This document shows, piece by piece, positions 3,293 to 29,491 of a DNA stretch of 64,000 nt (the first letter of the stretch is position 1; each line of letters starts with the position of its first letter). Under the pieces are notes generated by a model that ran no database searches, was not told the DNA's origin, and saw only the letters and a program-made list of their open reading frames with translations. Where the stretch lies: positions 1 through 64,000 of the forward strand of contig NZ_FNXF01000004.1 of NCBI RefSeq assembly GCF_900108485.1, written 5' to 3'. The DNA comes from Rheinheimera pacifica (GTDB lineage: Bacteria; Pseudomonadota; Gammaproteobacteria; Enterobacterales; Alteromonadaceae). Made by a program: the position numbers and the translations under genes.

Positions 3293-3590
3293 TGAAAAAG
3301 AGCTGCTGAAAAGAGATGCTGGCCGCAATATTGGCGAAGAGCTGCTGCTGGCGATCCGTGATGTTAAAGCTGGCAGAATTGGCCAAAGCTATGCTGTTGA
3401 ACCCAATGAAATTATCGCCACGCGGCTGAAGTGCGGCTTGTCACAAACGCAATTTGCTAAGGCATTGCATATTTCACCACGCACATTACAGCAGTGGGAG
3501 CAGGGTAGGCGTCAGCCATCAGGCGCAGCTGAAACCTTGCTGAAAATTGTGTCGAAATACCCGCAAATACTAGAAGAAGTAATGGCTTGA
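3282..3590 (+). CDS. HTH antitoxin of the XRE/HigA (NadS-like) type
   Basis: A 102-residue protein with a helix-turn-helix at about residues 45-75 (LSQTQFAKALHISPRTLQQWE), followed by GRRQPSGAAETLLKI, a pattern typical of the antitoxin partner of RelE/HigB toxins. It would neutralise the preceding toxin and repress the shared promoter through the HTH. The ATG lies inside the 3' end of the toxin gene, implying translational coupling. The AT-rich stretch at 2840-2895 upstream of the pair is the likely promoter and operator region, but I cannot place a clear operator. Confidence 0.87.
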   Translation: MPIDEKELLKRDAGRNIGEELLLAIRDVKAGRIGQSYAVEPNEIIATRLKCGLSQTQFAKALHISPRTLQQWEQGRRQPSGAAETLLKIVSKYPQILEEVMA

Positions 3591-3668
3591 ACTGGAATAG
3601 TTGCGAATAATTGCGGCAGGATAAAAACTAAATAGCCTAAGCAGCTTTAACTTTGAACTGCCCGTAAA

Positions 3669-4724
3669 TTATACCCCCCAATTATCTGAGCGAATAAACT
3701 TAGACAACACAGCCTGGTGTTGCTGTGCCCACAGGCTTATTGCCTGGCTGTCATCAGTGGTTATCTGTTCAATAAAAGCACTGGATAGCGCCTGGGTGGC
3801 GGCTTTGATCACCTGCTGCTGTGGCTGCGTATCTTTGCTGCCACGCCAGCCTGAAAAAATATTGTGGCTGCCTGAGCTAAACACCGCCAGCACTTTGTAG
3901 CTACTGGCCATGGCGTTATACAAGTCATATCTGTCTTGCGGCGATGAATAAAAACCCGGTACCCGAATTTCATCTTCGGTGGTAGTGATATGCAAAGTAG
4001 GGATGTTAACTTCAGCCAGCACTTTATCCAGTGGCTGATCATTATAAAAAGGCGGGGCTGAAATTAGAATGGCCGCTTTGATGCGGTCATCTTTCAGGCT
4101 GACCAGGGCGCCGTTTTGCTCCACTTGGGCACCGCTTAGTAACATTGAGGTATTCGCACCATACGAGTGGCCGGCCATCACAATAGTTTGGTTATCAAAA
4201 TCAGCGGCATGGGTTGACGCTAATATCTGGTCTAAAGCAAACTTCACATCCTGAACTCTGGCTAAGGCTTCGGTTGAATCAGCCGCGTCCATCAAGCGAA
4301 AGGGTAGCGTGAGCCTGCTGCCCCGCCAGACTTTTCGATCACTGCCATCATGCTGCACATGTAAGCTGGCATAGCCCTGACTGGCCCAATACTGGCCCAG
4401 GTAAGCGTAACGCTCTTTCGAACCCCCTAAGCCATGAGAAAATACAACTAATGCTTTGGCTTTTTGCTGACGCGCAGGTTTAAATAGCAAAGCGGGCACA
4501 ACCCGATCTCTGCTTTGGTCAAGCCAGTTAAAACTGATTTCTTCAATATTCAGCCACAAGCGCTCAGTAACTTCTGCCGAGTATTTTACCGAGGGCAAAT
4601 TCAGTTGCTGTTGCCAGACAACATTATCGGCTACCGGTTTTTGCGCGCATCCGATTAAAGAGATCAGCAAAGCAACAATAAATGCGGCTGCGCCTGATGC
4701 TTTAATGATGATATGAGATCGCAT
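3669..4724 (-). CDS. Lipoprotein alpha/beta hydrolase (dienelactone/PAF-acetylhydrolase-like)
   Basis: A 351-residue protein with a lipoprotein signal: LIGC with cysteine at residue 26. The mature part is an alpha/beta hydrolase: oxyanion-hole HGLG near 97-100, nucleophile elbow GHSYGA with Ser187, and a late His in SSGSHNIFSG as the probable catalytic histidine. Proteins of this type act on esters or phospholipids at the cell envelope; the substrate is not known. The gene is convergent with the antitoxin gene (78 bases between stops) and is followed upstream by a 290-base non-coding stretch. No operon partner. Confidence 0.8.
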   Translation of the reverse strand: MRSHIIIKASGAAAFIVALLISLIGCAQKPVADNVVWQQQLNLPSVKYSAEVTERLWLNIEEISFNWLDQSRDRVVPALLFKPARQQKAKALVVFSHGLGGSKERYAYLGQYWASQGYASLHVQHDGSDRKVWRGSRLTLPFRLMDAADSTEALARVQDVKFALDQILASTHAADFDNQTIVMAGHSYGANTSMLLSGAQVEQNGALVSLKDDRIKAAILISAPPFYNDQPLDKVLAEVNIPTLHITTTEDEIRVPGFYSSPQDRYDLYNAMASSYKVLAVFSSGSHNIFSGWRGSKDTQPQQQVIKAATQALSSAFIEQITTDDSQAISLWAQQHQAVLSKFIRSDNWGV

Positions 4725-5014: not shown

Positions 5015-5899
5015 CTAAACAGCATGACTGTTTATTAAGTGGCGCATTTTTTCTGTTATCCACTCAGTGATTTCACTGCTCGGGCTGTCGAGGCGTTTTA
5101 CTATGCCTATTTCAATTAATATATCGCTTAAAAAGTCGGTTTTTACCGCTGTTATTTGATCAACAAACCACTGCGCCCTGGCGATATGTTCCGGCACTAT
5201 TGCCCAGCCCTGATTTTGCGTTACCAGCTCACAAATTAAGTAGTAACTGTCTAAATCCCAATGGTTTGGGCTTAATGCATGTTCGCGGTTCTCGCCCGAA
5301 CGGTTACATAATACAAACTGCCGGTACTGCTGCAGTTGCGACAGGCTTAATACACCGGCATTGGCCAGCGGGTGCTTGTTACCGACAATCAATATTTTTT
5401 TAGAATAGCCCAAAGACTGTAAAGTCAACTCTGCTGGCAGAACGTTATTGCTGAGCATAAAACCAAGGTCGGCTTTTTGCCTGGCAATAGCCGTGGCAAT
5501 GTCGTCTTGTGAGCCATTGGTAATAACCATATGGGTGTTCGGAAATAAATCGCCTACCTGAGAAAAGATAGAGTGAATGGTTTCCAGCGGTAAGGCTTCA
5601 TCTATCGCGATACGCAGCGAAATGGGCTCTTTATTGGCTGCCGCCAGCGCTCTTGCATCTAAGCGCAGGCATTGGTTAAGCACAGCCCGTGCTTCGGGCA
5701 GTATTTCTTTGCCGAGTGCGGTTAAGGCCGGGAATTTCGAGCTGCGGTCAAATAATTCAAAACCTAAATCAAGTTCTAAATTAGCAATAGCGCTGCTGAT
5801 GCGCGATTGCGCTTTGTGCAGCTGCCTGGCTGCTGCGGAAAAAGAACCCAGCTCGGCAGCGGTAACAAAGGCCAGTAATTGATCTAAGGTCCAGTTCAT
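5015..5899 (-). CDS. LysR-family transcriptional regulator
   Basis: A 294-residue LysR protein. The N-terminal winged HTH covers residues 1-60 (LDQLLAFVTAAELGSFSAAARQLHKAQSRISSAIANLE); a type-2 periplasmic-binding-like effector domain follows from about residue 90. It is divergent from the MATE pump gene, with 134 bases between the starts, so it probably controls the pump and itself from that interval, as LysR regulators usually do. The effector is unknown. A good AGGAG-like site (GGAGATAGC) precedes the ATG on the minus strand. Confidence 0.88.
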   Translation of the reverse strand: MNWTLDQLLAFVTAAELGSFSAAARQLHKAQSRISSAIANLELDLGFELFDRSSKFPALTALGKEILPEARAVLNQCLRLDARALAAANKEPISLRIAIDEALPLETIHSIFSQVGDLFPNTHMVITNGSQDDIATAIARQKADLGFMLSNNVLPAELTLQSLGYSKKILIVGNKHPLANAGVLSLSQLQQYRQFVLCNRSGENREHALSPNHWDLDSYYLICELVTQNQGWAIVPEHIARAQWFVDQITAVKTDFLSDILIEIGIVKRLDSPSSEITEWITEKMRHLINSHAV

Positions 5900-6033: not shown

Positions 6034-7428
6034 ATGCAAGTTGTAACACCGGTTCAGCCGCCACACTCTGTAGCAGGCGCATTTTGGCGTTTTGCTATGC
6101 CGTCTATCGTTGCCATGTTAGTCAGCGGTTTGTATCAAATTATTGATGGCTTTTTTGTCGGCCACTTTGTTGGTGCCAACGGGCTGGCGGGCATTAATAT
6201 GGCATTACCACTGCTGGGTTTAATTATGGGCTTTGGTTTGCTGGTGGGCATGGGCGGTGGCAGCCTGTTGTCTAAATACCGCGGTGAAAACAATCTGGCA
6301 GCCACCCAGGCAACACTGGTTGCCGCGCTTGTGTTGGTGGTGTTAATTGGTTTATTCGCCACCTTGGTGTTTATTACCTTTGGTAAAAGCCTGCTAACGC
6401 TGCAAGGCGCAACCGGCATAACCATGCAAATGAGCTGGAGCTATGTGCAGATCATGTCGTTTGGTGCGCTTATATCCATTGGGGCCAGCGCTATGCCGAT
6501 GCTGGTGCGCAATGATGACAGCCCGAACCTGGCAACATTGTTTATTATCGTCGGCGCTTTAACAAACATTGCGCTGGACTACCTGTTTCTGGCCCATCTT
6601 GATATGGGATTACAAGGCGCAGCTATCGCCACTTTAATTGCGCAGCTGGCCACCTGTGTGCTGTGTCTGCGATATTTTATGTCATCAAAAGCCAAAACCG
6701 CTCTGGCGATAAAGCAATGGGATAAAGCCATTGCTGGCCGTATTGTGCAGTTAGGCTCATCTAACCTGGTGATGTTTATCTATTTCAGCTTTGTTATGGC
6801 GTTTCATAACAAGCAATTTATGGCCTATGGCGATACCACGCAATTGGCGGCCTTTGCGATTGTCGGTTATTTAGCCAGCTGTTACTACTTCTTTGCCGAA
6901 GGCTTGGTAAGCGGCTTGCAGCCGCCGGTAAGCTACTACTTAGGCGCCAAACAATACCAGCGCATTACGCAAACGGTAAAACTGGCGTTTTCTGTCACGG
7001 TAGGCTCGGGTATTGCTATGGTAATACTGCTTAATCTTTTTCCGCAGCTGTTTATCGGTATCTTTACTTCAGGCAACGATGCATTACTTGAGGCAAGTAA
7101 AAACGGTATTCGGCTGCACTTGATGGCACTGTTTTTAGATGGCTTTTTGTTTATGGCTGCAATTTACTTTGTTGCCGTTGGTAAGAGTGGCCAGGCGCTG
7201 TTTGTATCCTTAGGCAATATGTTAATTCAGCTGCCATTCCTGTTTATTTTGCCAAAATTCCTTGGCATTAATGGTGTGTGGCTGGCTGTGCCGTTATCCA
7301 ACATAGCCTTTGTACTGATTGTACTGCCGATGCTGTTGCTTAACCTCAAAGGCTTGAGGCAACTGCATAAGCAGCAGGGCGATACAAATAGAGTAGTGGC
7401 TAAGCATCCTACTTTTGATGCCGGTTAA
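6034..7428 (+). CDS. MATE-family multidrug/sodium efflux transporter
   Basis: A 464-residue inner-membrane protein with about 12 hydrophobic segments. The N-terminal MATE signature is clear: PSIVAMLVSGLYQIIDGFFVGHFVGANGLAG, with the glycine-rich VGMGGGSLLSKYRGE after it. MATE proteins export cationic drugs or metabolites using a sodium or proton gradient; this one resembles the MepA branch. The ATG at 6034 follows a GCAGGT Shine-Dalgarno-like site. The gene ends 20 bases before the convergent GntR gene. Confidence 0.9.
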   Translation: MQVVTPVQPPHSVAGAFWRFAMPSIVAMLVSGLYQIIDGFFVGHFVGANGLAGINMALPLLGLIMGFGLLVGMGGGSLLSKYRGENNLAATQATLVAALVLVVLIGLFATLVFITFGKSLLTLQGATGITMQMSWSYVQIMSFGALISIGASAMPMLVRNDDSPNLATLFIIVGALTNIALDYLFLAHLDMGLQGAAIATLIAQLATCVLCLRYFMSSKAKTALAIKQWDKAIAGRIVQLGSSNLVMFIYFSFVMAFHNKQFMAYGDTTQLAAFAIVGYLASCYYFFAEGLVSGLQPPVSYYLGAKQYQRITQTVKLAFSVTVGSGIAMVILLNLFPQLFIGIFTSGNDALLEASKNGIRLHLMALFLDGFLFMAAIYFVAVGKSGQALFVSLGNMLIQLPFLFILPKFLGINGVWLAVPLSNIAFVLIVLPMLLLNLKGLRQLHKQQGDTNRVVAKHPTFDAG

Positions 7429-24408: not shown

Positions 24409-25356
24409 ATGCAACAGATATTAAAACCAAGGTGTGCCAGCATCCGACGGGGCTTTGTGCTGGCCGCTTGCTTATTTACGGCGCAGGCCCTGGCGCAGGC
24501 AAACGACATCATGACGCCGATAGCGCCGCCTAATCAGAGCAAGGCGATCGACATCGGTACCGGCTCACTGCCAGGTGAGCAAACGCAAGAGTCATGGCAT
24601 GCTCAGTATGGCAGCCGCTTTGTGCGCAATGTTACCCTTGCCACGCTGACCCCCTTTTTGCCCGATCCGAAAAAAGCCAGCGGAGCTGCTGTGATCATTG
24701 CACCCGGCGGCGGTTTTCGCACATTGTCGATGGATAACGAAGGCTGGGAGGTTGCCCAGGCTCTGGCCAATCAGGGCATCGCAGCCTTTGTGCTTAAGTA
24801 TCGCTTAAATCAAACACCGGCAGACATGACTGAATTTAAACGGGCGATGGACGAGATGTTTTCGGCAACCGGGCGCCGGCCGCCACGGCCTGATCCGGCA
24901 CAGATGAAGCTTAGCCTCGCGCCGCAGTTGGAAGACTCCCGGGCAGCCTTCGCGCTGATCCGCAGCCGCGCAGTAGAGTGGAACATCGATCCGGACCGTA
25001 TTGGTATGCTGGGTTTCTCTGCCGGTGCCATGCTTACTATGGCAACCACGCTGGTTGATAAAGACGCTAAGCCCGCCTTTATTGGCAATATCTACGGTCC
25101 GATAGATGCGGTAGAGGTCCCAGCAGATGCACCACCGCTATTCGTTGCGCTGGCTGCAGACGATCCATTCTTTGCCAATGGTGAATTCGGTTTAATCAAG
25201 AGCTGGCATGCCGCCAAAAGGCCGGTCGAGTTTCACTTTTACGAGCAGGGCGGTCATGGCTTTGGCATGTACCCCAAAGAAACCACCAGTACCGGCTGGT
25301 TTAATGCCTTTACAAGCTGGCTAACAATGCACGGCATGTTCAAAGTTAAAGAGTAA
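24409..25356 (+). CDS. Secreted alpha/beta hydrolase, carbohydrate-esterase-like
   Basis: A 315-residue protein with a signal peptide to about residue 30 (FVLAACLFTAQALAQ). The alpha/beta hydrolase core shows the oxyanion region IIAPGGGFRTLS near 97-108, the nucleophile elbow GFSAGA with Ser204, an Asp in AADDPFF, and the catalytic His in GGHGFGMYP. The sequence resembles bacterial acetylxylan esterases and BD-FAE-type feruloyl esterases. It lies 61 bases after the GH43 gene and is likely cotranscribed with it. A good terminator begins directly at its stop codon. Confidence 0.85.
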   Translation: MQQILKPRCASIRRGFVLAACLFTAQALAQANDIMTPIAPPNQSKAIDIGTGSLPGEQTQESWHAQYGSRFVRNVTLATLTPFLPDPKKASGAAVIIAPGGGFRTLSMDNEGWEVAQALANQGIAAFVLKYRLNQTPADMTEFKRAMDEMFSATGRRPPRPDPAQMKLSLAPQLEDSRAAFALIRSRAVEWNIDPDRIGMLGFSAGAMLTMATTLVDKDAKPAFIGNIYGPIDAVEVPADAPPLFVALAADDPFFANGEFGLIKSWHAAKRPVEFHFYEQGGHGFGMYPKETTSTGWFNAFTSWLTMHGMFKVKE

Positions 25357-25387
25357 CAACCAGGCGGCGAAGCTGCCTGGTTGTTTC
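25357..25387 (+). terminator. Rho-independent terminator after the esterase gene
   Basis: CAACCAGGC (25357-25365) pairs with GCCTGGTTG (25375-25383), followed by TTTC. It ends the carbohydrate region before the cassette array. Confidence 0.8.
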
Positions 25388-25696
25388 ATGTGTAAATACC
25401 GCGCTTAATACTTTATCTGATAGTTCTGAACTAATCCGACAAGCTGTTAAGTGCCAAAAGCAGAAATTCCATCTGGTATGTATCATTGTACTCACATCGC
25501 TGTATTTATATCCAATTCGGTGCTAAAGCCAAAAGTGATTTGTCAGACGGGCTGACCCGTATTTGTCGCCAGCACAAATATAAACTGTACCGATAAGTTA
25601 TTGTAAGTTTTAAAGAAGCGGTGTAGTGTCTTGTACATTAAATTTACAAAGGCAGGTTAGCCCGTGTTTAAGTACGGGCCGACCCGTCGAATAAGC
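25388..25696. other. Non-coding leader of the integron cassette array
   Basis: No credible gene is seen. Two short GC-rich palindromic pieces (ACGGG...CCCGT near 25547-25560 and CCCGT...ACGGG near 25660-25677) stand out in an AT-rich background. The stretch ends at the first cassette core. It may hold a decayed attI or an older attC, but neither can be shown. Confidence 0.4.
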
Positions 25697-25703
25697 GTTA
25701 GCT
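25697..25703 (+). other. Left core site of the first cassette
   Basis: GTTAGCT fits the GTTRRRY core. It is the exact reverse complement of the inverse core AGCTAAC at 26467-26473, as expected for the two ends of one inserted cassette. No convincing paired site is found upstream, so the attI or attC it belonged to is not identified. Confidence 0.7.
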
Positions 25704-25744
25704 TGCAAAAGTTATTTCATCGCAAATTTTAATAAAGGATGCTT

Positions 25745-26455
25745 ATGTTACTTACATTAGATGAACTAGAAAAATCTCAAGATGTTACCTATTTAGCACT
25801 TAAAGACGATTTTTTTGTTTTTCCTGAAGGAGAGCATTCGAGTGAAAGGTTTGGCTTGAGATTAAAAGCTCAGCAGAGAATTGACGATATCGTAATGTTT
25901 CATCGGTATGTTACGACAGTTTATGAAAGCAATAAGGTACAATATGAACCGGTATACAAGAAGTTTAATGAACATTATGCACATATGTTCGATGAAATTT
26001 CTGAAGAAAAAAAGCATTTAGCTAGAATGTCATTTCCCAACTTCAATTGGAAAGAAGAGCAAGAACAAGTTAGGGCAATATCGAATGAAAGTTTAATCAT
26101 AAACTTATGGGCGACTATAGAGCAATTTACTAACCGGACGGCCAAACTTGTTAACCCTGAGGGCAACTCTTCACATCATTGGAATGTAGTGAAACAAAGC
26201 CTGTCAAACTTTGGAATTGATGTCACAGCTATAAGTTCATATAGCAGTATTAATGAACTACGAGTGGTTAATAATAAAATAAAGCACTTATATTATGTTG
26301 ATGAACAATTGTCGCAGTTTGAAAGTTTTAATGGTTGCCAAGGCCAAAGTCTGAACTCAATAAATTTTGAACTACAACGATATATCTCTTCTTCATACCA
26401 CTTTTTAATTGCACTCATAAATTTAGTAGGTGAAAGCATTTACTACCCCGAATAG
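25745..26455 (+). CDS. Cassette 1 protein, unknown, with a HEPN-like C-terminal motif
   Basis: A 236-residue soluble, highly charged protein. I use the ATG at 25745, five bases after AAGGA; the ATG at 25739 is too close to that site. The segment INELRVVNNKIKHL near residues 173-186 resembles the R-N-x3-KH region of HEPN-type proteins, and residues 115-125 (LIINLWATIEQF) look like the first helix of such a fold. This is a weak match and the function is unknown. AT content is far higher than in neighbouring core genes. It is the sole gene of the cassette that runs from 25698 to 26532. Confidence 0.7.
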   Translation: MLLTLDELEKSQDVTYLALKDDFFVFPEGEHSSERFGLRLKAQQRIDDIVMFHRYVTTVYESNKVQYEPVYKKFNEHYAHMFDEISEEKKHLARMSFPNFNWKEEQEQVRAISNESLIINLWATIEQFTNRTAKLVNPEGNSSHHWNVVKQSLSNFGIDVTAISSYSSINELRVVNNKIKHLYYVDEQLSQFESFNGCQGQSLNSINFELQRYISSSYHFLIALINLVGESIYYPE

Positions 26456-26466
26456 GATACGTCACA

Positions 26467-26538
26467 AGCTAACAAGTCACTGCACACGGAAATTTTACTC
26501 GCTTCACGCCCAAAATTCCGGTGAGTGAGGCGTTATGC
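26467..26538 (+). other. Integron attC site 1
   Basis: Inverse core AGCTAAC (26467-26473), right core GTTATGC (26532-26538). The interior forms a stem with CGGAA-TTTT against AAAATTCCG. Length 72 bp. The left core complements GTTAGCT at 25697. Confidence 0.85.
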
Positions 26539-26567
26539 AAGCCAAATCCTCAACGAGAGGCATAGAG

Positions 26568-26810
26568 ATGAAAGTTAAAGAACTAATTGCAAAACTCGAG
26601 AAGCTAGAGCCTGATCTGGAAATATATGGCTACACTGAGGATGGGTCGCTCGCAAAGCCGAATAAGCCATTTTACGTATTTGATATAGATGGTGTGGATG
26701 TGCAGATTGCCGAGACTTTCAGGGATGAAAATCGCTCACCATGCATCACTTTTGGCGAAAGTGAAAACTCCAGAAAAGTAGCGTTTCTTAATGTCACCAC
26801 AGACTTTTGA
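26568..26810 (+). CDS. Cassette 2 protein, small acidic, unknown
   Basis: An 80-residue acidic protein (MKVKELIAKLEKLEPDLEIYGY...). The ATG at 26568 is preceded by GAGAGG and AGAG; the longer frame from 26535 begins inside the attC core and is unlikely. The N-terminal helix ELIAKLEKLEPD and following strands resemble small cassette-borne proteins of unknown role that I have seen described for integrons, but no function can be given. It occupies the cassette 26533-26921. Confidence 0.7.
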   Translation: MKVKELIAKLEKLEPDLEIYGYTEDGSLAKPNKPFYVFDIDGVDVQIAETFRDENRSPCITFGESENSRKVAFLNVTTDF

Positions 26811-26817
26811 ATAAAAT

Positions 26818-26927
26818 GCATAACAAATCGTGCCAGTCGGACAGTTTGTTTCGCGGCTTTTTTGTGCTGGTCGCTACGCTAGCACAAAACGCCCCTTCAC
26901 AAACTGCCGCTGCACTCGGCGTTAGTT
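26818..26927 (+). other. Integron attC site 2
   Basis: Inverse core GCATAAC (26818-26824) is the exact complement of GTTATGC at 26532-26538; right core GTTAGTT (26921-26927). The interior carries ACAGTTTGT against ACAAACTG and TTTTGTGCT against AGCACAAAA. Length 110 bp. Confidence 0.9.
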
Positions 26928-26947
26928 TTAGGAACCAAGGGGTAGTC

Positions 26948-27421
26948 ATGATTATTGATTTTACATCATGGGAGGCAAGTGATTATGCCGCTTGGTGGGG
27001 AGCGATAATTGCTTCTTTTGCTCTTATTTGGAATGTGGTTGTTTTTCTTCGGTCTGGAGCGAGGATTAAAATTGTTGTGACGCCAAATATGGAATTGCAA
27101 CCTCCTATTCCGGGAAGCGAGGGGCAAAAATATATATTTGTTAAAGCCGTTAATACAGGTAGCTCAGCAACAACGATTACACATTTTTATGGATTTACTG
27201 CATCGAGTCACTTTGAACGGTTCAGAAAGAGAATTAATCAATTTATTATCAATGGTGATGGCAGTTACAACAAATTACCAGCCAAGCTTGAACCAGGTGA
27301 AGAATGGATTGGATTGGCTATTCAAGACGACGAATTGTTAAAAGAAAAATTGGTTTACTATGGCATCTACCATAATCAAAAAGATAAACCAGTTTGCAAG
27401 AAGGTTAAATTTGGTTCCTAA
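26948..27421 (+). CDS. Cassette 3 protein, single-span membrane protein, unknown
   Basis: A 157-residue protein with one N-terminal membrane segment (residues about 12-34, AAWWGAIIASFALIWNVVVFL) and a beta-rich soluble part (IKIVVTPNMEL, YIFVKAVNTGSSATTITHFYGF, LEPGEEWIGLAIQDD). This layout is common in small cassette-borne membrane proteins. The ATG at 26948 follows an AAGGGG site; the frame open to 26807 crosses the attC and is not coding there. The stop codon lies in the inverse core of the next attC. Function unknown. Confidence 0.75.
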   Translation: MIIDFTSWEASDYAAWWGAIIASFALIWNVVVFLRSGARIKIVVTPNMELQPPIPGSEGQKYIFVKAVNTGSSATTITHFYGFTASSHFERFRKRINQFIINGDGSYNKLPAKLEPGEEWIGLAIQDDELLKEKLVYYGIYHNQKDKPVCKKVKFGS

Positions 27422-27496
27422 CAATCGCCATCAAAAACGCGCCCTTTGGGCGCTCGACTCGCAACAAGTTGCTCGCGTGTGTGGCGGGCGTTAGGT
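27416..27496 (+). other. Integron attC site 3
   Basis: Inverse core TCCTAAC (27416-27422), right core GTTAGGT (27490-27496). Inner boxes CGCCATCA and TGTGGCG pair with one extrahelical T, and GCGCCC/GGGCGC pair further in. Length 81 bp. This is a textbook short attC. Confidence 0.92.
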
Positions 27497-27511
27497 AAGA
27501 GTGCCGATCGA

Positions 27512-28483
27512 ATGTATATATTTGAAATGAATTTGCTTAAACCTGGGGACATTATCCTGACTTCTCAGGTAGGGGCTATCAGCAAAGCGGTTCGCTTATC
27601 CACTTTTAGTAAATTTTCTCATGCAATACTCTATGTCGGAGATGGAAGTTTTATTCACTCTGACGGGCAGGGAGTTCATTCAAATAATATTCAGCGATTG
27701 CTCTTTGACAACAAAAAACATGCTGAGGTATGCCGAGTATTAGACGGAAATTATGTGGATCAAGCAATAATGTTTGCTCGCTCTCAAATAGGAACGTCGT
27801 ATTCAGTGAAAGAGGCTGTAAGAACGAGAAATCCTCTTTACCGTGGTGAGAAACTAAATAGGCAATTTTGCTCACGTTTAGTAGCACAATCTTATGAGTA
27901 TGCCGGTTTGCGACTCGTTAACAATTCGGATTACTGCACACCTAAGGACTTACAGCAGTCTTTGCATACAAGCATCGTAGATGGCTGCCTTCGGATTGCA
28001 GAGGATCATGAAGTCGAGTTCGCAAGGAGTGATAGCCCGATCCAAAGACAAACGGACATAACAAATTATATTCTAAAAGCAGTTAGGGAGCTTACACGAA
28101 GCGATATACAAAGCTTTGAAAACTTGGATCAATTTGTAATTGATAACCAAGCCTATGATGCGGAGATAACTAACATTGTAGTGAAATCGGGCTATCTAAC
28201 TATGTTTGATTATGAACTAAAAAAAAATCCTTGGCGGTACAATGGGCAGCTGTTCTTGTCTTTGGATATAGACGGTGCATATAAAAAGGAGCGAGCTGAA
28301 TTCGAATTAGAAAGTGCTGAAAAACAGGCTCAGCTCTATAGTCACAACTATCTAATGTGTCAGAATGTTCGGGGCCGTTTCCCTCTCAGATATTTTGAGA
28401 TGAAAATGGATCTATATAAGAAATTAATTGATTTTATGAATAAGCGAATTGAAGCCGCTAAGTATGTCATTAAAAATACCTAA
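27512..28483 (+). CDS. Cassette 4 protein, permuted NlpC/P60 (YiiX-like) cysteine hydrolase with extension
   Basis: A 323-residue protein from the ATG at 27512 (27527 is also possible). Residues 1-160 fit the YiiX/YebB group of circularly permuted NlpC/P60 (papain-like) hydrolases: LLKPGDIILTS, the histidine in SHAILYVGDGSFIHSD, ARSQIGTSYS and the cysteine in NRQFCSRLVAQSYEYAG. The remaining 160 residues are charged, mostly helical and not recognised. The family hydrolyses peptide, amide or acyl bonds; the target here is unknown. The stop codon lies in the inverse core ACCTAAC of the last attC. Base composition is AT-rich. Confidence 0.78.
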   Translation: MYIFEMNLLKPGDIILTSQVGAISKAVRLSTFSKFSHAILYVGDGSFIHSDGQGVHSNNIQRLLFDNKKHAEVCRVLDGNYVDQAIMFARSQIGTSYSVKEAVRTRNPLYRGEKLNRQFCSRLVAQSYEYAGLRLVNNSDYCTPKDLQQSLHTSIVDGCLRIAEDHEVEFARSDSPIQRQTDITNYILKAVRELTRSDIQSFENLDQFVIDNQAYDAEITNIVVKSGYLTMFDYELKKNPWRYNGQLFLSLDIDGAYKKERAEFELESAEKQAQLYSHNYLMCQNVRGRFPLRYFEMKMDLYKKLIDFMNKRIEAAKYVIKNT

Positions 28484-28631
28484 CAAACCGCTGCACGCCG
28501 ATACATACTGCTACGCTCGTTTTTGTGTGTCGCTGCGCGCCACTTTACACAAAAACGCTCTCCGCAGTATGTACGGCACAATGGTTTAAGTGTGGTGGTG
28601 GCGTTGCTCACTACTTAACGCGGCGTTAATG
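28478..28631 (+). other. Integron attC site 4 (last of array)
   Basis: Inverse core ACCTAAC (28478-28484) is the exact complement of GTTAGGT at 27490-27496; right core GTTAATG (28625-28631). Inner arms ACATACTGC/GCAGTATGT and GTTTTTGTGT/ACACAAAAAC are complementary. Length 154 bp, in the range of long Vibrio-type sites. No further cassette follows. Confidence 0.88.
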
Positions 28632-28753
28632 TCCGCTTTCGCTCTTAACAGACGGACAGAGCAGTCACCTTTTGTTATCAAAGTCTGTTTGACTCAGTGC
28701 ATGCATTAGTTAATGCTTTATCAGATAACACAATAAGCACGGGTTTCCGCCTT

Positions 28754-29491
28754 TCAATCTTCGCTTAACTTCCGCTGAGCCAGCAGCTCTGCTCTGGCTT
28801 CTGGCTGGGTGATATACCTTTCTATTGCTGCCATTAACACTGGCGCATCAATACCGTAGGTAGACGTCATAATGACAAAATCAGCACCGGTCCATTTGCG
28901 GGATGACGCCATTTGCTTATTTACTTTAGCCAGGTAAGACGCCGGTGCTACCAAGATATTTTCCGCGGCAACCGACAGAAATACCGCCTGATTATTGTGG
29001 ATTTCACCACGGTATAAATCGGTAATGGCTTCCCACGGAATACTGACGTTGCCTTTGGGGTAGCCAAAGGTAAAACCTGACGGGTCGAACTGGATATAGG
29101 TTTTCGCCAGGCGGCCGCTAAATAACCCGACCAGTAACACTGCACCGGTAAGGGCAATCAGCAGGGTAATGCCGTAGAAAACTCTATTATCGTCAGGCTG
29201 AAACAGCATAAGGGTGCTGCCAAATGCCAGCATGCCAATACCAAGCAAGGCGATGCGCTTTTTGGATGCATGGATAGGTTCGCCGCCGACAACGGTTACT
29301 GTGCGTAATGACTGGCGCTGCAGGCGCAATTTGCGAACAATAATATGCACCGCCACCGCAAAGCAGGCGCCAAAAAACACCAGTGTGGTGATGCCGGTAT
29401 TAAAATCTTTCTGAATAATCAGCAAGCTACTTAAAGTAAAAAGCAGGCCAATCAGGGCAAAGAGCCAGTCTTTGAAGGTAACTTTATCCAA
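28754..29491 (-). CDS. Conserved-type inner-membrane protein, unknown
   Basis: A 245-residue protein with four hydrophobic segments (about residues 10-25, 32-52, 80-98 and 103-123), followed by a soluble domain of about 110 residues with the strand-rich IQFDPSGFTFGYPKGNVSIPWEAITDLYRGEI, which resembles bacterial PH-like domains of membrane proteins. No function can be assigned. It stands alone downstream of the cassette array; its stop is 122 bases from the last attC, so it marks the return to ordinary chromosome. Confidence 0.75.
   Translation of the reverse strand: MDKVTFKDWLFALIGLLFTLSSLLIIQKDFNTGITTLVFFGACFAVAVHIIVRKLRLQRQSLRTVTVVGGEPIHASKKRIALLGIGMLAFGSTLMLFQPDDNRVFYGITLLIALTGAVLLVGLFSGRLAKTYIQFDPSGFTFGYPKGNVSIPWEAITDLYRGEIHNNQAVFLSVAAENILVAPASYLAKVNKQMASSRKWTGADFVIMTSTYGIDAPVLMAAIERYITQPEARAELLAQRKLSED

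Follow-up and report, generated by a model that had tools for sequence, protein, structure and literature searches.

Four gene cassettes stand in a row, each followed by an attC recombination site, in the 64,000-nucleotide stretch of Rheinheimera pacifica DNA analyzed here (contig NZ_FNXF01000004.1, positions 1 to 64,000; hereafter the window), and no integron integrase gene (intI) adjoins them. How did these cassettes come to be collected at this place? We consider it likely that the array is docked at one of many dispersed attI sites that have no integrase gene of their own, and that an integrase serves these sites in trans. Support comes from the anatomy of the array, from full-length homology between the element at its left end and an integrase-associated attI, from conservation of this platform and its left flank with turnover of what lies downstream, and from an exact exchange at the crossover point (G|TT) between two species.

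In the mechanism that we propose, the integrase would be supplied in trans, from a gene elsewhere in the cell or, at times, in the strain's ancestor, and would join incoming attC-bearing circles to the element at its right-hand G|TT (25697). Cassettes would be excised again through their own attC sites. The scattered platforms would gain and lose cassettes in this manner, with each platform itself inherited at a fixed place.

The element at the head of the array

When DNA from 25600-28700 was used as a search query, its first 100 bp were found to recur at many other places in the genome. The repeat extends over approximately 25448-25703, and one partly matching copy is the attI adjoining a broken intI. 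When nine copies were combined in a profile, this aligned from end to end with the DNA adjacent to intI at 12 further loci. A sequence-only model (R2) was built from 54 dispersed copies, with intI-adjacent copies excluded from training, and was applied to 29 intI loci. It matched directly upstream of intI in 12 of them, at full length (approximately positions 2-162 of 163) and in the correct orientation, and these 12 loci are exactly clade A of the intI tree (IntI-A, at least 81% identity). The remaining 17 loci gave no such match; the best score among them was 15.8 bits in locus L058, at a position that is not upstream of intI. Among these loci, L085 lacks DNA upstream of intI, and L086 was represented in the tree by another recombinase. 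Because all 12 clade A loci and none of the 17 others were matched at full length, the element is, as judged by homology, the attI of IntI-A (attI-A). The attI of clade B integrases is unrelated to it in sequence.

An earlier note on this DNA, made from the sequence alone, had set the left boundary at 25697. This position holds as the recombination point, but the feature itself begins near 25448, and the roughly 250 bp to the left of cassette 1 are a homologue of the attI that accompanies intI in the genus. Also missing from that picture were the repetition of the element across the genome and the genus and the broken intI beside one copy on another contig.

The window copy shows full-length attI homology and carries the GTT core at the cassette junction. 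These features bear on the proposal that no dedicated platform was involved and that cassette entry took place at a secondary site hit by chance (attG). Insertion at attG is known in E. coli (cited in the accessible portion of PMC12444791), but an attG site has no homology to attI or attC, whereas 25540-25700 is an attI homologue. Such homology, 160-250 bp long, coincides exactly with the point of entry in the window and at dozens of sites elsewhere. This contradicts the attG proposal, which we regard as hardly tenable.

The array spans 25697-28631 and consists of four head-to-tail cassettes between an alpha/beta-hydrolase gene on the left and a 245-aa gene of the opposite strand on the right. 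Its features, including the open reading frames (ORFs), are as follows.

24409-25356, + strand: left flanking host gene, alpha/beta hydrolase (Pfam Abhydrolase_3/DLH/BD-FAE); left flank orthologous in Rheinheimera genomes G013, G029 and G002
25448-25536, + strand: left module of the dispersed element, with a sharp start of homology between non-orthologous loci; GTGCCAAAAGCAGA at 25451-25464
25540-25700, + strand: attI-like element (attI-A) with the GTT core at its end; R2 match, with the window copy within the R2 training set
25697-25703, + strand: core GTTAGCT with crossover G|TT, the cassette entry point
25739-26455, + strand: cassette 1 ORF, 238 aa; no family above cutoff
26467-26538, + strand: attC1, from its fold and a held-out covariance model
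26535-26810, + strand: cassette 2 ORF, 91 aa; no family
26818-26927, + strand: attC2, from its fold and the held-out model
26948-27421, + strand: cassette 3 ORF, about 157 aa; no family above cutoff (scanned from 26951)
27416-27496, + strand: attC3, from its fold and the held-out model
27512-28483, + strand: cassette 4 ORF, 323 aa, permuted papain-like C92 (YaeF/YiiX) hydrolase
28478-28631, + strand: attC4 (long), from cores, fold and position; missed by the held-out model
28625-28645, + strand: right junction GTTAATGTCCGCTTTCGCTCT, resembling the right end of enterobacterial units
28754-29491, - strand: right flanking host gene, 245 aa, no family

The matching cores lie where the earlier note had placed them: GTTAGCT (25697) with AGCTAAC (26467), GTTATGC (26532) with GCATAAC (26818), and GTTAGGT (27490) with ACCTAAC (28478). 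Cassette 3 has a weaker pair (GTTAGTT against TCCTAAC), also as described there. Bottom-strand folds of the four attC sites (attC4 folded as 28478-28627) are all more stable than dinucleotide shuffles, with z-scores of -2.46, -3.61, -3.10 and -3.18. A covariance model, proposed as a further check, recovered most of the sites. Model R1 finds all four, but all four are among its 32 hand-chosen training sites. R3 is a rebuild without the window sites, from 28 attC of the same genome. Over the 64 kb, R3 found three of the four (27416-27496, E-value 2.2e-13; 26467-26538, 3.2e-7; 26818-26927, 2.0e-5), and attC4 was unmatched at E≤1. The assignment of attC4 rests on its fold, cores and position, together with the same arrangement in a second species. 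Its end (GTTAATG, 28625-28631) is part of the docking site. The third site is a genus-typical attC repeat with nine further copies elsewhere in the genome at 77-96% identity; contigs C45, C17, C12 and C10 carry eight of these. The protein of cassette 4 is 44% identical to Providencia plasmid proteins.

The earlier note offered two readings of the locus, a cluster of attC sites lacking integrase (CALIN) or the tail of an array. It is a complete CALIN and not a tail, with the attI-like site on its left and an orthologous host gene on its right. It has two or more attC sites, and none of the 13 matches to the integrase family TIGR02249 in the genome is on the contig of the window (C16), in agreement with the statement that the window has no intI. 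At this locus no intI adjoins the attI, as it would in a complete integron. Elsewhere in the window, a lone attC (926-1004; R3 E-value 6.4e-5) follows an ORF at 266-931 and precedes a 429-aa ORF at 1020-2309; searches of the window with the element models placed no attI-like element next to this attC.

Fixed platforms, changing cassettes and the source of integrase

Is the platform in the window one of a family? With R2, the element was found in all 31 congeners at 1-13 copies each (165 in total at E≤1e-8, intI-adjacent copies included). A BLAST search with the window copy found it in 30 of the 31 congeners and in none of 29 genomes of other genera. Among 75 dispersed copies, attC sites on the same strand lie within 2 kb downstream of 41 and within 2 kb upstream of 5, and attC sites on the opposite strand were seen at none of the 75 in the DNA taken around them.

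These platforms stay in place and their contents change. Six loci, each defined by a common left flank in 3-9 species, yielded 84 species pairs, of which only one shows a match over the 400 bp that follow the element on its right. Between species, elements from the same locus are on average 81.6% identical (50 pairs), compared with 75.6% for elements at different loci in one genome (68 pairs; p ~5e-4, with pairs that are not independent). Because same-locus elements are more alike than same-genome elements, we conclude that the platforms are inherited vertically in place.

The locus in the window behaves similarly. A fixed order of the same four genes in all relatives would have spoken against mobility, but the five congeners that carry the right-flank gene differ from the window, which favors mobility. 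In G013, the element (lacking 25423-25579) is followed by one different cassette in place of cassettes 1 and 2 and then by cassettes 3 and 4, and the swap is joined exactly at G|TTAGTTTT. In G029, the element is preceded on the left by an additional 1.65 kb and followed by other cassettes. Other genes stand at this place in G002 and G014, and also in G024 over the 1.5 kb seen. Cassettes 3 and 4 of G013 are 100% and 99% identical to those of the window, whereas the flanking genes are 88-90% identical, and the shared cassettes are therefore younger than the split between the species. The exchange between species at G|TT is indirect support for the view that the integrase would recombine the element with attC.

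Genomes assembled as one contig show element-headed arrays as well, which excludes a contig artifact. In G020, an element-headed array of 12 attC and the intI-A array are 2.36 Mb apart by the coordinates of the record, or 0.78 Mb in the opposite direction if the record is circular. The 18 kb taken around the element-headed array contained no match to intI-A or intI-B, and the nearest intI, approximately 47 kb away, is of another lineage (48% identity to IntI-A). In G025, element-headed arrays carry 9 and 2 attC. Satellite and main arrays share stretches of high identity, with 95% over 989 bp in G020 and 98.5% over 341 bp in G025.

Which integrase could load such platforms? Matches to intI above the family cutoff were found in 28 of 31 Rheinheimera genomes, and an intact IntI-A in 13 of 31. 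In the genome of the window (G000), the best TIGR02249 match is a piece of a broken intI on contig C17, directly adjoined by an attI and a long attC array that reaches the contig end. Both ends of this IntI-A protein are detectable in several pieces, and approximately residues 101-204 are missing. Another fragment, on the 6.8-kb contig C34 (3779-3979), is a short second intI-like remnant with 61 aa matched at 66% to IntI-A. Since IntI-A is broken and no other intact intI was found in the assembly, the array in the window is probably static at present. We infer that IntI acts in trans, and likewise which IntI acts; the element may also be the carrier of a cassette promoter. Two congeners (L058 in G025 and L059 in G016) have an intI of another lineage, whose upstream sequence we take to resemble the attI1 of class 1 integrons.

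The broken IntI-A also bears on a simpler account, in which each platform is a former complete integron that has lost intI by ordinary decay, making the array a conventional CALIN. CALINs have been proposed to be degraded integrons (PMC9024848, in its accessible text), and one copy of the clade B site (attI-B; L163) has a truncated intI alongside. However, none of the 75 dispersed elements has an intI remnant within 2.5 kb upstream (73 have at least 1.5 kb of DNA there, and broken intI controls were detected), and the DNA that separates attI from intI is absent at all 75. Instead, copies of one subfamily (subfamily I) have an extra left module of approximately 90 bp. It has a sharp edge (GTRCCAAAAGC) at about a dozen unrelated loci among the matches listed. 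To account for as many as 13 copies in a genome, at sites that are inherited vertically, decay would require many independent losses that left no trace. We therefore consider decay unlikely as the general origin of these platforms, and return to docking in trans.

Two further proposals were dropped during this work. Dependence of the element on the presence of IntI-A was abandoned because the copy number is as high in genomes without an intact IntI-A. The view that only attI-A is dispersed was also abandoned; attI-B copies without an intact intI in the DNA taken around them head attC arrays too, although fewer. Among 11 attI-B loci (L159-L169), nine (L159-L164 and L167-L169) have a same-strand attC after the attI-B.

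Several observations weigh against docking in trans as we have described it. First, the enzyme in species without IntI-A is among the weakest links. Both G000 and G013 lack an intact IntI-A, and the only intI match in G013 belongs to clade B, with its unrelated attI, and lies approximately 575 kb away from the locus of the recent swap, on the same contig. Genomes without an intact IntI-A carry a mean of 5.6 copies of the element, and genomes with it 4.9. Second, the high identity between the window and G013 runs to approximately 28700, past the attC4 core, and homologous recombination or separate transfer may also have been involved in the sharing of cassettes 3 and 4. Third, 34 of the 75 dispersed copies have no model-detected attC within 2 kb downstream, and a shortage of DNA (less than 2 kb on that side) applies to only 4 of these 34. 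Cassettes are thus demonstrable at some copies but not at all, which is another of the weakest links. Fourth, in five genomes (31 attC clusters from 150 of 162 attC, with 7 of the 9 elements of G024 entered), attI-A heads only 7 of the 25 clusters that have no intI within 2.5 kb, and 4 of the 13 such clusters with two or more attC. Two clusters in G018 are borderline, one (of the 13) with an intI 3.4 kb upstream and one with an attI-A 2.55 kb upstream. The chance expectation of an attI-A head within 2.5 kb is 0.001-0.003 per cluster. An attI-A head is thus common but not universal among such clusters, and the idea that all CALINs have an attI-type head is unsupported by these counts. Finally, the support as a whole consists of sequence comparison.

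Related units outside the genus

Does the element travel? It is present in 147 of 5426 E. coli genomes, and a search with an E. coli copy as query found it on 17 of 72,556 plasmids (12 from Klebsiella, 3 from Providencia and 2 from Pantoea). The strongest finding outside the genus is a unit of 1343-1362 bp, composed of the element, an ORF (321 aa, no family) and an attC, which is 99.0-99.6% identical in all six pairings of four copies (L212, L216, L217 and L218). This 1.36-kb unit begins with GTGCCA and ends with CGCTCA, and it sits in unrelated flanks on a K. pneumoniae plasmid, an E. coli chromosome and two Pantoea plasmids. The K. pneumoniae plasmid is a phage-plasmid of 110 kb with terminase, portal, capsid and tail genes. 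With the same ends in unrelated flanks on different replicons, the enterobacterial sequence has the properties of a discrete mobile unit.

On a plasmid of Vibrio europaeus, an array with six attC matches includes the ORF and attC of the unit as one of its cassettes, at 91% identity. Homology to the Vibrio cassette extends in L212 from position 5115, which is 4 bp past the end of the element-model match (model position 156 of 163), to position 6216, within the core of the attC. The entry core is mutated in the 1.36-kb unit. Its attC was matched by R1 (E-value 1.4e-4) and by R3 (0.026), in the latter case in only 2 of the 4 copies searched, and the enterobacterial attC folds no better than shuffles (z-scores -0.29 and 0.36; -0.84 for the Vibrio copy). 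The attC of an E. coli unit on the ychF side gave no match at E≤1 with R1 or R3 and was recognized by eye only.

These junctions help to evaluate another explanation, in which the element is mainly a promoter or operator module that has spread upstream of accessory genes, with cassettes being incidental. The middle of the element is strongly conserved, CGG-N6-CCG palindromes occur at three places and covary, and one E. coli ORF begins approximately 35 bp downstream of the element; the 34 copies without a detectable attC would also fit. On the other hand, the element is the attI in all 12 clade A integrons examined, contents change exactly at G|TT, and the homology to the Vibrio cassette starts at the element end and stops at the core of its attC. 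A consensus promoter scan of 25357-25760 revealed no site on the + strand. We find it quite unlikely that the element is mainly such a module, although a combined attI and promoter role is possible. We also considered a hairpin at the right side of the element, where 9 of 11 named pairs change on both sides. This claim was dropped because operator-like palindromes would give an equal signal and single-sequence folds are weak (z-scores -1.74 and -1.66). RNAalifold gave no consensus structure for the element.

The ends of the unit lie in palindromes with 11-bp arms (AATGTCCGCTT / AAGCGGACATT) around 8 bp. At the window locus, the right junction GTTAATGTCCGCTTTCGCTC matches GTTAATGCCCGCTTTTCGCTC of the unit. 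The left end is common to subfamily I among the matches listed, and the right-end motif is found in only 2 of 75 Rheinheimera copies in the DNA taken, with the window and G013 having it; we therefore rejected the motif as a general feature in Rheinheimera. At a second Rheinheimera locus (L176, L180, L181 and L178), a motif like GTGCCAAAAGC also stands at the head of inserts in which no attI element directly follows the motif. The palindrome arms resemble tyrosine-recombinase sites and are comparable to lox-, pdif- and FimB-type sites. Tentatively, the attI may itself be the mobile part, such that integrase-less platforms in GTGCCA-CGCTCA units with 11-bp arms could spread between genera, chromosomes, plasmids and phage-plasmids and be loaded in trans by a resident or visiting IntI. 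We offer this as a conjecture that could well fail.

Several observations concern these ends and what adjoins them. In four Klebsiella 110-kb plasmids that were read (L222, L223, L224 and L226; approximately 1190-2740), other genes (GFA, a DUF2268 protease, SMEK and a hypothetical gene) occupy the site of the attI unit between similar palindromic ends. The palindrome TGTCCGCTT-N8-AAGCGGACA (a 9-8-9 core form) occurs in 41 viral-contig stretches (L227-L267), most commonly with the core TGTGCCAG or CCGGCCAG. None of these 41 stretches contains the element, searches of the viral contigs found neither a conserved 24-mer of it nor an exact junction of an empty platform with the right end, and the element was not found in a phage collection. 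The papers listed by a literature search for the arms are all unrelated by title. A gene for a 200-aa minimal tyrosine recombinase adjoins the unit in Pantoea (L217, 3000-3602), and a broken tyrosine recombinase gene, annotated as frameshifted, adjoins a unit in E. coli (L215, 4478-4946). At its attC end, the unit on a K. michiganensis plasmid (L221) adjoins a transposase gene of the IS110 family (3372-4610), and the unit match stops there.

Comparison with known systems

What do these sites add to the known range of integrons? Our results suggest that one integron system can serve many scattered sites. If this is true, an integron would be a distributed system, with one integrase and many docks, and not a single locus. 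Cassettes would gain a vehicle with a dock but no integrase in the near-identical unit, which is carried on plasmids of Klebsiella and Pantoea and on E. coli chromosomes. In the literature searched, we found no report of a dispersed, vertically inherited family of attI platforms or of a cross-genus unit. As far as the accessible text of PMC9024848 indicates, attI sites are poorly described outside class 1 integrons, and tools that search for intI and attC only would therefore overlook such docks.

The array in the window is like other CALINs in having two or more attC and no intI nearby. What sets it apart is a recognizable attI head, assignable to a known integrase lineage, and a vertically inherited site at which the cassettes turn over. 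The closest precedent that we found is in the Shewanella prophage M16-3, where one CALIN starts with the same attI as a complete integron of that prophage (PMC9892861, from the sections available). This is a single case, and those sections describe neither a platform family, nor orthology or turnover, nor a cross-genus unit. Shewanella genomes with and without intI also carry scattered cassettes with single or few attC (single attC lacking integrase [SALIN] and CALIN; PMC9229058); this resembles the situation here, but the portion of that report available to us describes no docking element. The Delta-attI-type cassettes of mobile integrons (PMC12901181, in its available part) similarly place an attI-derived recombination site away from its usual position. 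Those sites sit in resistance cassettes inside mobile integrons, whereas whole attI elements head arrays outside integrons in Rheinheimera.

CALINs occur commonly, and their origin is mostly ascribed to decay or stray insertion; a genus-wide family of conserved attI docks with changing content represents a specific alternative. In Xanthomonas, CALINs occupy fixed chromosomal loci away from intI in approximately half of the genomes (PMC12444791, according to the text available). Both systems have CALINs at fixed loci, and that text reports no attI at the Xanthomonas loci. Docks of the type described here may explain why CALINs occur at fixed loci, and they offer a possible cause for the Xanthomonas case.

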